DNA of 64,000 nucleotides from Microcoleus vaginatus WJT46-NPBG5. Lineage in GTDB: Bacteria > Cyanobacteriota > Cyanobacteriia > Cyanobacteriales > Oscillatoriaceae. Below the pieces are notes generated by a model. It saw nothing but the letters and a program-made list of their open reading frames with translations. It made no database searches and was not told where the DNA came from. The first letter of the stretch is position 1. Every line of letters starts with the position of its first letter. Position numbers and translations under genes: made by a program. Shown here piece after piece: positions 26,566 to 41,674 of this stretch. Location: positions 248,001-312,000 of the forward strand of contig JAHHHM010000004.1 of assembly GCA_019359355.1 (NCBI GenBank), given 5' to 3'.

Positions 26566-28374
26566 TTAGTCGGTTTTCACCGGCAGTTTACCTAAGATCG
26601 AATAAACTATCGTTTCTGTTTCCTTGCCCCGCAGTTGAATCGCCCCAAATTCTTGGCCGGCATAGTCATCGCTCACATAACCAAATGTCCGATCAGTCAG
26701 CAAAATTTGATAAGGACTGTCGGACGTCAAATTCTTTGTCATTGCCTCTAGTCGCGCCGCTACGTTCACTGTATCACCGAGAACTGAATAGCTCAGCCGC
26801 TGCGCTCCCCCGATGGTGCCGGCGATCACAGGGCCGGTGTGGATGCCAATTCCAAACCGAATCAAGGGCCGATTTTCTTCTTTAAAACGCTCGTTAAGCA
26901 CCTGTAAACGCTCGTGCATGGCGAGGCTGGCTGTAATGGCTGCCGTGGCATCCCGTTTCACGTCTTCTTCTTGAGCTTGCGGAAAGGGAATGCCAAAGAC
27001 TGCCATAATCGCATCTCCAATATATTTGTCAATGACGCCGCCATGTTCCATGATGCAACTGGCCATCGCATCTAGGTATAAATTCAGCCAGGTGAGCAAC
27101 TCGCGGGGTGCCAGGGCTTCGGAAATTGTAGTAAACCCCCGAATATCCATAAATAAAACCGTTGCGGTGAGTTCTTGGGCTTCTAGTTCCCCGTTTTCAA
27201 AAATTTCTTCTTTGCGTTCCCAAATCACTTCTGCCATTTCTGGGGCAACGTGTTGGGCAAACAAGTTCATTAGCTGTTGCTTTTCATATTGTTCACGTAA
27301 CTGAACACCTAGACCGGCTAATAAAATGGTGCCAATCGGGGCGGCAACCGGCAGCCATAAGTTGCCCCAGATGAAGGCGGTGAGGGCAATGGCAAACCAA
27401 GCTGGGGGTAAAATTAGGCCGATGACAACGCGTTCCTTGAGCTGCCGGTTAAATAGTAGCCAACTGGTGCCGGCACCAATCGCCAGCAACAGCAAAATGT
27501 CCGCCCACTCTGGTGTTCGTTGCAGCAGCCGATTATTTAATAAGTTATCGATCAAGGCGGCGTGGAGATAAACGCCAGAGGTTGGTGGGTCTTGGTTGAG
27601 TGGCGATCTCAGCGGGTCCATGCCGGTCGCTGTTGGGCCAATTAACACTAATTTATTGGCCAGAACACTGGGATCAACTCGACCTTCTGCGATGTCTGCA
27701 AAGGAATAAGTGGGTAATGCTTGGGTTGTTCCGGGCCAGTTAATCCAGACTTTTGGCATTTTCTCATCGGCATCTGGCTTGGGTAACGCTAACTGAACAC
27801 CGGCACGGGTTTTATAAACATCTAGCATAGCGGGCGCGAGTGCCGGTAGTGATTCAACAAACACGGTGGCTTGCCGGCTGATCCCGTCTTTATCAGGGTC
27901 GTGCAAGATATGACCGACATTCGCTGCGGCTTTGTCAAGAACCGGCACAGGTGGCAGTAGCTTGCCTTGTGCGTCCCAAGCCACAGATAAGACGACGTTG
28001 CCTTGATCTGCCATTGCCTGTGCCATTGCAGCGTCTAAAGGACTGGGCGCAACAAATAAAATATCGAATCCAACCGCTGCCGGTGGTGACTTTTTTAAAG
28101 CTTGCAAAAGTTGTGTGTAGCGAGCGCGCGGCCAGGGAAATTGGCCATACTCTTGCAAACTCGCTTGATCGATGGCGATCACGGCGATTCGCTCATTCCA
28201 CCCAATCGGCGGACGGATTTTAAAAAAAGCGTTGTAACCTAACTGTTCTAGTTGCTGCCAATAACCTAGTTGTGACATCCCCAAAGCCACAGCCGCCGCC
28301 ACTACCCCAGGAAATCTGGGATGATTGCCGGCTAGGTAATTCTGAAACCGCTGAATCCAGCTTTTGACCACCAT
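26566..28374 (-). CDS. CHASE2-domain adenylate/guanylate cyclase
   Basis: 602 residues. A first hydrophobic segment lies near 22-40. A CHASE2 extracellular sensor follows at about 45-285, with IAVIAIDQASLQEYGQFPWPR and VGFDILFVAP. Three membrane helices come at about 290-365. A class III nucleotide cyclase domain fills about 400-590, with metal-binding aspartates in LFMDIRGFTTISE and DKYIGDAIMAVFG, and RFGIGIHTGPVIAGTIG and YSVLGDTVNVAARLE. It would make cAMP or cGMP in response to a periplasmic signal. The neighbouring FecR-domain and SLH genes on the same strand suggest an envelope-related locus. Confidence 0.92.
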   Translation of the reverse strand: MVVKSWIQRFQNYLAGNHPRFPGVVAAAVALGMSQLGYWQQLEQLGYNAFFKIRPPIGWNERIAVIAIDQASLQEYGQFPWPRARYTQLLQALKKSPPAAVGFDILFVAPSPLDAAMAQAMADQGNVVLSVAWDAQGKLLPPVPVLDKAAANVGHILHDPDKDGISRQATVFVESLPALAPAMLDVYKTRAGVQLALPKPDADEKMPKVWINWPGTTQALPTYSFADIAEGRVDPSVLANKLVLIGPTATGMDPLRSPLNQDPPTSGVYLHAALIDNLLNNRLLQRTPEWADILLLLAIGAGTSWLLFNRQLKERVVIGLILPPAWFAIALTAFIWGNLWLPVAAPIGTILLAGLGVQLREQYEKQQLMNLFAQHVAPEMAEVIWERKEEIFENGELEAQELTATVLFMDIRGFTTISEALAPRELLTWLNLYLDAMASCIMEHGGVIDKYIGDAIMAVFGIPFPQAQEEDVKRDATAAITASLAMHERLQVLNERFKEENRPLIRFGIGIHTGPVIAGTIGGAQRLSYSVLGDTVNVAARLEAMTKNLTSDSPYQILLTDRTFGYVSDDYAGQEFGAIQLRGKETETIVYSILGKLPVKTD

Positions 28375-35932: not shown

Positions 35933-36742
35933 ATGAAACGAACAATCCCCGCAAGCGTCCTGCTTTTAGCGGCAATCTGCTCAGCTTGTCAAGGAAGTGG
36001 CCAGACTAATTCGCTCAACCGGCTGCTGCAAACCAAGGAATGTCAGGGATGTGATTTAAGAGAAGCCAATCTAGCCGGTGCTCAACTCAAAGGCGCAAAT
36101 ATAAGCCGTGCGGATCTGGGGAACGCGCAGCTAAACGGTGCTAATTTACAAGGAACCCAGCTCAAAAGTGTTGATTTCTTCAGTGCTAATCTTCAGCAGG
36201 CAAATTTAGAAGGGGCGCTGCTGCTCAATGCGAATCTGATTCAGGCGAATCTTAGCGGTGCCAATCTTAAGCAAGCGAATCTAGAGGATGCCAGCCTCAG
36301 ATCAGCCAATCTCAATAGTGCAAATCTCAGTGGTGCTCAGTTAGGCTACACCAATTTCATGGGCGCTCAACTGAATGCGGCTGATCTGAATAATGCTGCT
36401 TTAAGCCATTGCGACATGATTCAGGCGAATCTGACGTCAGCCAATCTGAAGGGGGCAAATCTGGTAGATGCTAACTTGAGCGGTGCTGACTTGACAGGTG
36501 CCAGTTTAGAGAATGCCTTCCTGGAAAATGCCAATCTCCGGCGGGCAAATTTGGAGAAAGCCAACCTGAGTGGCACTCAATTGCGCTATGCCAACTTGAT
36601 TGAGGCGAATTTAACCGGCGCGAATTTAAAGGGTGCAGATCTGAGCAGTGCTAATCTCACCGGCGCGAATTTAGAGGGGGCGGATTTGACGGAGGCGACG
36701 TTAGCCGATGCGATCTTGCCGGATGAGACACTACAGCCGTAA
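35933..36742 (+). CDS. Pentapeptide-repeat lipoprotein
   Basis: 269 residues. The N-terminus is a probable lipoprotein signal ending in CSAC (Cys19); the -3 Cys is unusual. From about residue 35 almost the whole protein is pentapeptide repeats A(N/D)LxxA, about 45 units, which would fold as a right-handed quadrilateral beta-helix. It opens with LLQTKECQGCDLREANLAGA. That motif is shared with the pentapeptide protein at 46675-47682, which suggests they are paralogues. Role unknown; a periplasmic scaffold is likely. Confidence 0.88.
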   Translation: MKRTIPASVLLLAAICSACQGSGQTNSLNRLLQTKECQGCDLREANLAGAQLKGANISRADLGNAQLNGANLQGTQLKSVDFFSANLQQANLEGALLLNANLIQANLSGANLKQANLEDASLRSANLNSANLSGAQLGYTNFMGAQLNAADLNNAALSHCDMIQANLTSANLKGANLVDANLSGADLTGASLENAFLENANLRRANLEKANLSGTQLRYANLIEANLTGANLKGADLSSANLTGANLEGADLTEATLADAILPDETLQP

Positions 36743-38783: not shown

Positions 38784-39569
38784 ATGAGTCAAATCACCTC
38801 ATCTGTGGAGCCGGTGAATTTTACACCTGAGCTGCCTACGAGTTTGCCCGATCACACTCAACTTCCCGACTCTGACGGTACTTTTGTGAAAAATCTTCAG
38901 GAGCATCCCCAAAGTATTCTGCTGACGGATTCGATCATGCCGGTGTTGCAGCAGTTACATCCAGACGGTCAATATTGTATCGGGCAAGATAGCGGCATTT
39001 ACTGGCGAATCACTGATCCACCGGAAAGAGGCGCTGAGGCACCTGATTGGTTTTATGTGCCGAATGTGCCGCCGGTTCTCAATGGTGAAATGCGGCGTTC
39101 TTATGTGCTTTGGCAGGAATATGTCGCGCCCTTAATTGTGCTGGAATTTGTTTCTGGAAATGGCGAAGCAGAACGAGATACAACGTCGGTTACAGGTAAG
39201 TTTTGGGTTTACGAACAGGCTATTCGTGTTCCTTTTTATGCGATTTATGAGGTAAAAAAAGCGCAAGTTGAGGTGTATCAACTCGTTGCCGGTCACTATG
39301 AGTTAATCTCTCCTAATGAGCGCGGACACTATGCAATTCCCCCGTTGGGTGTGGAGTTAGGAATTTGGCAAGGGCAATATCAAAATGCAACGCTGCCGTG
39401 GCTGCGCTGGTGGGATGAGCAGGGAAATTTATTGCTAACAGGAGAAGAACGAGCGGCAGTTGAGCGACAGCAGAAGGAGTTGGCTCAACAACGTGCTGAA
39501 ACTGAACGGCAACGTGCTGAGCGGTTAGCAGAGCAGTTGAGGGCGTTAGGGGTTGAGCCTGAAGCGTAG
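38784..39569 (+). CDS. Uma2 family (DUF820) PD-(D/E)XK nuclease-fold protein
   Basis: 261 residues. The Uma2 fold is seen at about 60-205, with catalytic-like residues in GAEAPDWFYV (Asp), LIVLEFVSGNGE (Glu) and TGKFWVYE (Lys), then PFYAIYEVKKAQVEVYQ. The C-terminal 45 residues are a Gln/Arg/Glu-rich coiled coil (RAAVERQQKELAQQRAETER). This family is strongly expanded in cyanobacteria and its cellular role is not established. The AGGAAG site lies seven bases before the ATG. It sits just behind the aspS terminator, so it has its own promoter. Confidence 0.88.
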   Translation: MSQITSSVEPVNFTPELPTSLPDHTQLPDSDGTFVKNLQEHPQSILLTDSIMPVLQQLHPDGQYCIGQDSGIYWRITDPPERGAEAPDWFYVPNVPPVLNGEMRRSYVLWQEYVAPLIVLEFVSGNGEAERDTTSVTGKFWVYEQAIRVPFYAIYEVKKAQVEVYQLVAGHYELISPNERGHYAIPPLGVELGIWQGQYQNATLPWLRWWDEQGNLLLTGEERAAVERQQKELAQQRAETERQRAERLAEQLRALGVEPEA

Positions 39570-39724: not shown

Positions 39725-40219
39725 TTAACTATCTCGAATTGAAGAAGCATTTGCCAGATTTTCTGCTGCTTTTTTCATCATTTCAATATCTGCCGGCAAC
39801 CAAACACGAGGATCGCAGCAGTGATGGGCGATTAATAGTCCCCATAGTCCTTTGAAATTGAGCACCGGCACCACTAAATTCGCTCGAACCTGGATACTGC
39901 GGAGAAAGTCTCTGTGGCAAGGGTGGATTGGCTCTAATTCAATATCTGGAATGGCTCGCACTCGTCCCGCTTCATATAAAGCCGCATATTCGCCATTAAA
40001 ACAATCATCCGCTCCCCTCATTCCAAAGACAGACAACTGCGGAGAACTCAAAGACTCGAAGGTAACTTGCCCTCTCCACTGGAGGTAAAAGTAATATAAA
40101 ATCACCCGATCAACATCGAGGATTTTTCTCAAGTCATTTGTCGTTTCTTGAACTGTCTTATCTTGAGTGAGTGTTTTAGAAAGACGGTCGGTTATTTTTT
40201 GTAAACTTGGATCAGCCAT
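39725..40219 (-). CDS. Stand-alone GAF domain of the DXCF cyanobacteriochrome type
   Basis: 164 residues, essentially a single GAF domain. VDRVILYYFYLQWRGQVTFES opens the core. A DXCF motif (DDCF) places a cysteine at position 73. Exactly 28 residues later comes the canonical chromophore-binding Cys101 followed by His102 in HPCHRDFLRSIQVRANLVV. LWGLLIAHHCCDPRVW closes the domain. This combination defines the two-cysteine cyanobacteriochromes, which attach a bilin and typically sense blue/green light. The 28-residue spacing equals that of TePixJ (Cys494/Cys522). Unusually there is no kinase, cyclase or MCP output domain, and no partner gene on the same strand. It converges with the Uma2 gene. 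Confidence 0.83.
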   Translation of the reverse strand: MADPSLQKITDRLSKTLTQDKTVQETTNDLRKILDVDRVILYYFYLQWRGQVTFESLSSPQLSVFGMRGADDCFNGEYAALYEAGRVRAIPDIELEPIHPCHRDFLRSIQVRANLVVPVLNFKGLWGLLIAHHCCDPRVWLPADIEMMKKAAENLANASSIRDS

Positions 40220-40398: not shown

Positions 40399-40722
40399 AA
40401 GGCATTCGGAATTCTCGTTTGGGTATTAGGAGACCGGAGTGCGAAAACCTTTGCCAAGCTATGCAAGATTATCAAGTGTTGCAAAAGTTATTTTTATGTG
40501 ACAGATCGATACTCAGTTTACCCATGTTTTATTGATGATGAAGACCACATTCTCAGCAAAACATACATGACGCGAGTTGAAGGAGAAAATACAAGATTAA
40601 GGCATTACTTAGCGTGCCTGATCGTCGAACATTATGTTATTCCAAAAAAGGAAATGCTGAAGCATTCAATTAAGTTGTTACTCTATTATCTCCATGACGG
40701 TTTTGTAACTCTTCCCGGCTAA
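40399..40722 (+). mobile_element. IS1-family transposase 3' remnant
   Basis: The frame from 40399 gives KAFGILVWVLGDRSAKTF...YVTDRYSVYPCFIDDEDHI...SKTYMTRVEGENTRLRHYLA. This is the catalytic C-terminal half of IS1-type transposases. In the family the sequence after LA continues L-H-R-x-T-L-C-Y-S-K. Here that segment is out of phase between about 40620 and 40660 and returns to frame before EMLKHSIKLLLYYL, indicating two compensating small deletions. The 5' half of the gene is missing. The right terminal inverted repeat survives at 40728-40746. Confidence 0.82.
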
Positions 40723-40777: not shown

Positions 40778-41674
40778 TTAGTTTTTTAGCTCGCTACATT
40801 CAGCAATAAAATCAACGAAAGTTCGCACTTTCGATGAAAGATATTTGCGGCTAGTATACACAGCATAAAGCATATTAGCCGGCAAACGATAATCCAGCAT
40901 CACCCTTTCTAGATGTCCGGCAGCAATATCGTCTTCAATCAGCCAAGTTGGTAAGAATGCCAGACCCATTCCATCCATTACCGCGTTGTGTATCAGATTT
41001 TCATTGTTAGTCCGCAGCACCGACGACCCAATCTTAACGCTTTCTTTTCCCGTTAGTCCTTCAAAAGGCAGTTCACCCTCTGAAAGTGACAAATACGAAT
41101 AAGTAATCATAGCGTGCTGCGATAAATCTTTCGGTTTTAAAGGGTATCCAGCTTTGCGAAGGTATGACGGAGAGCCTACTAAGTAAAATGGAATAGATGC
41201 AATTGGATGTGCAATCAGGTTACTAGGAGGAGATTGAGTCACTCTCAAAACCAAATCAAACCCTTCCTCTACTACGTTAACCATCCGCCCACTTAAGTCA
41301 ATGTCTAAGGAGACTGCGGCAAACTGTGCCTGATAATTAGCAAGTATCTTCGTAAATGTGCGATTGGCAAACCAAACTGGGGCACTAATTTTTAGCACCC
41401 CACTAGGGACAATTGTGGCTCGGCTGACCGTTGCTTCTACTTCATCCAGGCTATCCAACATCTCGCAACATTGTTCAAAATAGACTTTCCCGATTTCAGT
41501 CAAGCTTAAATGCCGGCTGGTGCGATTTAGCAAGCGACCGCCCAAGTGCTGCTCTAGGTGCATAACGTGTTTGCTAGCCATTGCAGGAGACATTTCCATG
41601 CGATCGGCGGCAGCAACAAAGCTTTTCAGTTCTACAACTGTGCGAAACACCCGCATACTCACTAATGTATCCAT
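40778..41674 (-). CDS. LysR-family transcriptional regulator
   Basis: 298 residues. An N-terminal winged helix-turn-helix (about 3-62: VFRTVVELKSFVAAADRMEM, MASKHVMHLEQHLGGRLLNR) is followed by the periplasmic-binding-protein-like effector domain (about 88-290). It is transcribed away from the extradiol dioxygenase-like gene across a short spacer that holds a LysR-type operator candidate, the usual arrangement for autorepression plus effector-dependent activation of the divergent gene. The effector is likely an aromatic or related metabolite, by inference from the neighbours. Confidence 0.92.
   Translation of the reverse strand: MDTLVSMRVFRTVVELKSFVAAADRMEMSPAMASKHVMHLEQHLGGRLLNRTSRHLSLTEIGKVYFEQCCEMLDSLDEVEATVSRATIVPSGVLKISAPVWFANRTFTKILANYQAQFAAVSLDIDLSGRMVNVVEEGFDLVLRVTQSPPSNLIAHPIASIPFYLVGSPSYLRKAGYPLKPKDLSQHAMITYSYLSLSEGELPFEGLTGKESVKIGSSVLRTNNENLIHNAVMDGMGLAFLPTWLIEDDIAAGHLERVMLDYRLPANMLYAVYTSRKYLSSKVRTFVDFIAECSELKN

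Follow-up and report, generated by a model that had tools for sequence, protein, structure and literature searches.

The window analyzed here, namely the whole stretch of 64,000 nucleotides from Microcoleus vaginatus, carries a gene for a cyanobacteriochrome (CBCR) GAF protein that stands alone. The gene is real, conserved, and old, and its product belongs to a kind of CBCR already known; its interest lies in the missing output. The reading we prefer, and consider rather probable, is that the product belongs to an old single-domain DXCF CBCR family and acts as a blue-absorbing bilin photoswitch making light-dependent contact with a separate partner. The gene, its two cysteine motifs, and its neighbors are as follows.

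39725 to 40219, minus strand: stand-alone DXCF cyanobacteriochrome GAF protein of 164 aa (ORF, Pfam GAF, PDB matches, AlphaFold, fold search, and orthologues)
40001 to 40003, minus strand: codon of Cys73, the second cysteine, in DDCF (counted from the ORF start at 40219)
39914 to 39919, minus strand: codons of Cys101 and His102, the canonical bilin cysteine and the next histidine (counted from the ORF start at 40219)
38784 to 39569, plus strand: Uma2-family ORF, convergent with and downstream of the GAF gene (PF05685, 1.3e-20)
40778 to 41674, minus strand: LysR-type regulator ORF, 559 bp upstream of the GAF gene (PF00126 and PF03466)

The ORF begins with ATG, and its coordinates include the stop codon; the initial annotation had correctly described a single GAF domain of 164 residues without stating the strand. 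GAF was the sole Pfam family found at E<=0.01 (4.3e-19, residues 21-158). Neither a PAS nor a PHY domain was found in the protein by Pfam, and it is thus not a PAS-GAF-PHY phytochrome. Cys73 lies in D71-D-C-F, 28 residues before Cys101-His102, which is the spacing known in TePixJ. In the phmmer alignment with the TePixJ structure 3vv4 (E 5.4e-20), Cys73 falls on the cysteine of DPCF and Cys101-His102 on CH with no gap between the two motifs, so that the cysteine assignment made earlier from the letters holds. The GAF protein was matched by 93 PDB sequences at E<=0.001. Among the 60 matches listed, the telling names are those of CBCRs, (bacterio)phytochromes, or fluorescent proteins, whereas several entries have no more than a general name (histidine kinase or sensor protein, for example).

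The AlphaFold model, a monomer without bilin computed from 23 alignment rows, had a mean pLDDT of 89.4 and a pTM of 0.84, and predicts a CBCR fold. In the fold search by VIA-align, 6mgh (miRFP670nano) came first with a Z of 23.9 and TePixJ 4glq fifth with a Z of 22.8 (rmsd of 1.9 over 148 residues); miRFP670nano was the first match in Foldseek as well. Where a protein is named among the 50 fold matches listed, it is a CBCR or phytochrome domain or an engineered derivative, and a few bear general names. The final helices of the model reach residues 157 and 162 of the 164, and a long C-terminal signalling helix is absent. Judged from the sequence, the product classifies as a DXCF CBCR by the kind of its GAF domain, the Cys-His pair, and the spacing of the second cysteine. 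Together with the fold and the lack of any other domain, this bears out the earlier description of an isolated DXCF CBCR domain.

No output domain was detected by Pfam in the 164-aa protein or in the flanking Uma2 and LysR genes, which supports the initial annotation both in its identification of these neighbors and in its remark that such a protein would need a separate partner. Neither the Uma2 ORF nor the LysR ORF is thought to be part of the GAF system; note that a Uma2-like ORF also occurs near the orthologue in two genomes of the same genus (L046 and L047). Between the LysR and GAF genes lies an ORF of 74 aa (40498-40722, plus strand) with a weak match to an IS1 transposase (PF03400, 20.5 bits against a cut-off of 24.1), probably a remnant. 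Farther off in the window, a 602-aa ORF (26566-28374, minus strand) resembles by eye a CHASE2-type adenylate/guanylate cyclase, and a second ORF (35933-36742, plus strand) appears by eye to encode pentapeptide repeats. In L172 and L179, ORFs like the latter accompany the stand-alone GAF. Such repeats are common, and the pentapeptide-repeat neighbor, found in three groups, was therefore taken as probably due to chance.

The stand-alone form is widespread. Among 60 related genomes (its own included), 27 matched at 1e-40 and 26 of them possess a stand-alone orthologue; the other, G007 (66% complete), matched through a frame of 693 aa only. Two frames in this set are long when read from stop to stop (341 and 260); of these, the 341 frame shows no known domain by eye in its upstream part. 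In a sample of the class comprising 388 genomes (again with its own), 126 matched, and 124 of these had a frame of 136-267 aa; G140 and G082 matched only in frames longer than 1000 aa. The two sorts of match separate in this sample, as all long-frame matches had E-values of 1.6e-44 or weaker and the short-frame ones 6.8e-48 or stronger. In a Nostocales family (f33), 145 of the 196 genomes matched at 1e-45, and all listed frames are of 180-216 aa. At the thresholds used, most genomes carry one stand-alone copy. The 25 orthologue loci found first have frames of 168-210 aa. Altogether, these sequences suggest a stand-alone CBCR family in which the whole protein is one GAF domain of about 160-200 aa, and the product of the window fits this description.

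The 25 first-found loci came in part from search patterns containing both cysteine motifs and are thus biased to keep the cysteines. The loci of the 60-genome and 388-genome searches and some further regions, on the other hand, came from whole-protein searches without a cysteine filter. From 156 loci, we removed 21 identical sequences and added the protein of the window, yielding 136 distinct stand-alone sequences. By alignment count, Cys73, Cys101, and His102 are each present in 136 of 136, and D71 in 129. The residues R38, Y42, W48, G50, F74, Y78, Y82, G85, R86, W126, H132, and W140 are likewise fixed in all 136.

In DXCF CBCRs, the canonical cysteine is attached to C3-1 of the bilin and the second cysteine to C10, phycocyanobilin (PCB) is turned into phycoviolobilin (PVB), and the dark state absorbs blue light (PMC11284453). 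By analogy with these proteins, we strongly infer the sensing half of the preferred reading, namely the bilin, the two thioethers, the blue dark state, and the isomerization; bilin binding and color are expected from the named relatives that bear the same residues. The protein would fold as a CBCR GAF, and Cys101 would bind phycocyanobilin covalently, with the pigment perhaps turned into phycoviolobilin. In the dark, Cys73 would form a second thioether to C10 of the bilin and thereby give blue absorption. Light would isomerize the C15=C16 bond, upon which the second link would open and leave a form absorbing in the green to orange. The chromophore is likely available, as the same genome has one gene of the bilin-reductase family (PF05996, 7.5e-77). 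It also has 24 matches besides the GAF gene (E<=1e-5), which lie in open frames of 684-1943 aa, and four PHY matches. Since the protein has no kinase, no cyclase, and no long signalling helix, it is most likely a soluble light-dependent binding protein, which would dock on a separate partner in one of its photostates. We infer the partner and an output through docking as the simplest reading, and the diffusible light sensor suggested in the initial annotation is plausible.

The protein might instead hold a bilin as a chromophore store, carrier, or quencher, with both cysteines fastening the pigment and no switching involved. This is unlikely, albeit still worth weighing. It agrees with the missing output, with the lack of a neighbor common across families, and with a CpeS-type bilin lyase gene (PF09367) near the stand-alone GAF in two of 100 loci (46 of f33 and 54 others), both outside f33. 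Nevertheless, a simple carrier could do without the reversible DXCF cysteine, and Cys73 is present in every one of the 136 sequences; in known relatives this cysteine serves photoconversion (PMC11284453). The lyase, besides being confined to two loci, is accompanied in one of them (L109) by two CpeS-like stretches, so that L109 may be a bilin locus by chance. As a neighboring partner of the GAF protein, the CpeS lyase was rejected, two of 100 loci being not enough.

The lyase genes themselves lie at L002:4077-4616 (plus strand), 319 bp upstream of the stand-alone GAF on the same strand, and at L109:5834-6388 (plus strand). The L002 record is titled as a metagenome-assembled genome of Candidatus Gracilibacteria, yet it holds a cyanobacterial-type CBCR together with a bilin lyase; the contig is probably cyanobacterial and misbinned.

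A tie to the complex I-like NDH-1 machinery, in which blue/green light might tune the assembly or modification of the complex, was considered from the gene neighborhoods. For each locus, these extend over the stretch retrieved, in most cases +/-4 to 8 kb around the gene. In f33, we had 46 loci, of which 45 are distinct (L014 and L125 are the same contig); these 45 and the 54 loci outside f33 may include a few duplicate genomes besides this pair. The f33 gene stands between ndhH, which precedes it by at most 1.2 kb on the same strand in 17 of the 45 distinct loci, and a methyltransferase gene (PF02636), found downstream in 25 and within 200 bp in 14. The human relative of the PF02636 protein, NDUFAF7, methylates NDUFS2, the homologue of NdhH. 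However, among the 54 loci outside f33, ndhH is near in one (on the opposite strand) and the methyltransferase in none; both are absent from the window, and one family may have inherited this synteny. Being limited to one Nostocales family, the tie to NDH-1 is kept as a weak rival, which we regard as quite improbable.

The arrangement of ndhH, the stand-alone CBCR gene, and the methyltransferase gene on one strand is seen at L112:6079-9304 (plus strand) and recurs in whole or in part in many f33 loci. At L119:5019-8047 (plus strand), a phenylalanyl-tRNA synthetase beta gene ends approximately 6 bp before the stand-alone GAF, with which it shares the strand, and ndhH lies on the other side of the GAF in the opposite orientation. 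Neighbors that had matched a widened GGDEF motif were not counted, as their length, strand, and distance point to the PF02636 methyltransferase.

Among the 54 loci outside f33, no neighbor within 4 kb recurred in more than three of the 23 taxonomic groups. A motif scan for histidine kinases over 101 loci (45 of f33 and 56 others including L048 and L051) placed one within 4 kb in two of the 45 and seven of the 56. Close upstream on the same strand, a kinase was found in three loci only, at L001:688-4737 (plus strand), L048:2253-3488 (minus strand), and L051:2200-3489 (minus strand), roughly 200-260 bp from the GAF match. L048 and L051 belong to one family, and L001 is nearly identical to L048. 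It is possible that these kinases are a local partner, but with only three such loci, an adjacent kinase partner would be no more than a local feature. A two-component partner next door (9 of 51 loci) was rejected, the kinases and regulators being of several kinds and in varied places. The neighbors thus change while the gene stays, the NDH-1 setting belonging to one family and the kinase setting to another.

Could the gene be the fragment left by a broken histidine kinase, or else a copy in decay? In favor of this, the multi-domain GAFs most similar to it (45-46% identity) lie in frames of 689-693 aa, two of which (689 aa) read by eye as GAF-GAF-histidine kinases; the copy of G537 (one of the 145 f33 genomes) contains an in-frame TAG, and that of G360 (one of the 124 class-sample genomes) matches over residues 43-163 only, in a frame of 136 aa. 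Against this stand the 124 class-sample genomes with stand-alone frames and the two cysteines kept in all 136 sequences, as well as the phylogeny and the substitution rates. In the phylogeny, 35 stand-alone sequences formed one clade separated from 19 multi-domain GAFs with a support of 100/100 and a stem of 0.95; the window copy grouped with its two relatives of the same genus. Note that this tree is unrooted, includes 35 of the 136 stand-alone sequences, takes 15 of its 19 multi-domain GAFs from the genome to which the window belongs, and leaves out four loci of that genome with partial matches (L038, L043, L044, and L045). A multi-domain member nested in the stand-alone clade is possible elsewhere. 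The dN/dS values in three same-genus pairs were 0.104, 0.219, and 0.118, pointing to purifying selection on the gene within the genus. Orthologues revealing a broken longer gene were looked for across the related and class genomes and not found. We regard the fragment as highly improbable. As far as the aligned sequences tell, the stand-alone CBCR looks like an old, widely kept family, not a broken piece. The class-wide orthologues, the fully supported clade, and the selection within the genus also give no support to the recently freed module considered in the initial annotation.

Free methionine-R-sulfoxide reductase is likewise a one-domain GAF enzyme of comparable length, and a single domain bearing conserved cysteines would agree with it. 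That the protein is an enzyme of this sort is scarcely credible: its cysteines occupy bilin motifs that align with those of TePixJ, the named fold matches among the 50 listed are CBCR or phytochrome domains or engineered derivatives, and NCBIfam up to an E of 1 gave only bacteriophytochrome BphP (1.6e-8, far below the cut-off), although that library may lack a model of the reductase.

Returning to the photoswitch with a separate partner, we compared the stand-alone sequences with the 19 multi-domain GAFs for residues particular to the former. The DXCF cysteine is present in 17 of the 19 and the canonical cysteine in 16. Defining a family marker as a residue found in at least 90% of the stand-alone sequences and at most 15% of the multi-domain GAFs, we obtained Y43, Y45, N75, R103, T53, L13, L41, I98, and L155. 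Y43 is present in 134 of the 136 stand-alone sequences, Y45 in 133, and N75, which adjoins the DXCF motif, in 128, versus none of the 19 multi-domain GAFs in each case; R103, adjoining CH, is found in 123 versus two. In the strand of residues 38-46 in the AlphaFold model, Y43 and Y45 alternate with Y42 and F44, and should therefore face away from them. We guess from this alternation, not from the coordinates, that Y43 and Y45 could form a docking surface. On a broader scale, we tentatively suggest, at somewhat less than even chances, that the output-less CBCRs across the class may be soluble light-gated binders, which would use a surface of Y43/Y45 and N75/R103 to reach a shared partner encoded elsewhere. 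As part of this tentative suggestion, the family might be the counterpart, within the phytochrome superfamily, of single-domain response regulators.

Most work on CBCRs treats them as sensor domains that can be detached from kinases, cyclases, or chemoreceptors. A CBCR consisting of the domain only, mostly in one copy per genome and in about a third of the class genomes sampled (124 of 388), suggests signalling without an output of its own. Identifying the partner would reveal how a light signal sensed by a bilin is handed from one protein to another, and would yield a compact natural binder that depends on light.

In the open-licence literature searched, we did not find the stand-alone CBCR family as such, which may still be published. 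It is probably known in part through alr3356 of Nostoc PCC 7120, a probable published relative. This gene is described as similar to phytochrome and as a direct target of FurA, and its product is called a CBCR whose GAF binds a chromophore (PMC4788461). The same paper refers to Ma et al. (2012) for seven GAF domains of PCC 7120 that absorb blue light, and from this citation Alr3356 is presumably one of the seven. The number of alr3356 follows that of alr3355, which is ndhH (PMC8147232, PMC12923008), and ndhH precedes the stand-alone GAF in 17 of the 45 f33 loci; judging from synteny and locus numbers, alr3356 is thus likely an orthologue of the stand-alone GAF gene of the window. In contrast to Alr3356, the window copy has no ndhH neighbor. 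The link to alr3356 makes the family directly testable in Nostoc PCC 7120.

NpF4973 of Nostoc punctiforme, a DXCF CBCR with PCB and absorption at 435/600 nm (PMC4469895), shares the DXCF class with the window protein. The multi-domain GAFs in the 689-693 aa frames are the closest multi-domain relatives. L072 and L074 (689 aa each) resemble the family in the GADDCF and PCH..FL motifs, but are GAF-GAF-histidine kinases by eye and are placed with the multi-domain GAFs in the tree. The miRFP670nano family (6mgh, 7lsc, and 7lsd) gives the best fold match and demonstrates that an isolated CBCR GAF can be a stable soluble protein; however, it is an engineered fluorescent protein, and the DXCF cysteine is missing from 6mgh. 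The TePixJ GAF (3vv4, 4glq, and 4fof) is likewise a DXCF blue/green CBCR, to which both cysteines align without a gap, but it is 30-33% identical to the window protein and part of a methyl-accepting chemotaxis protein according to the molecule name in PDB.
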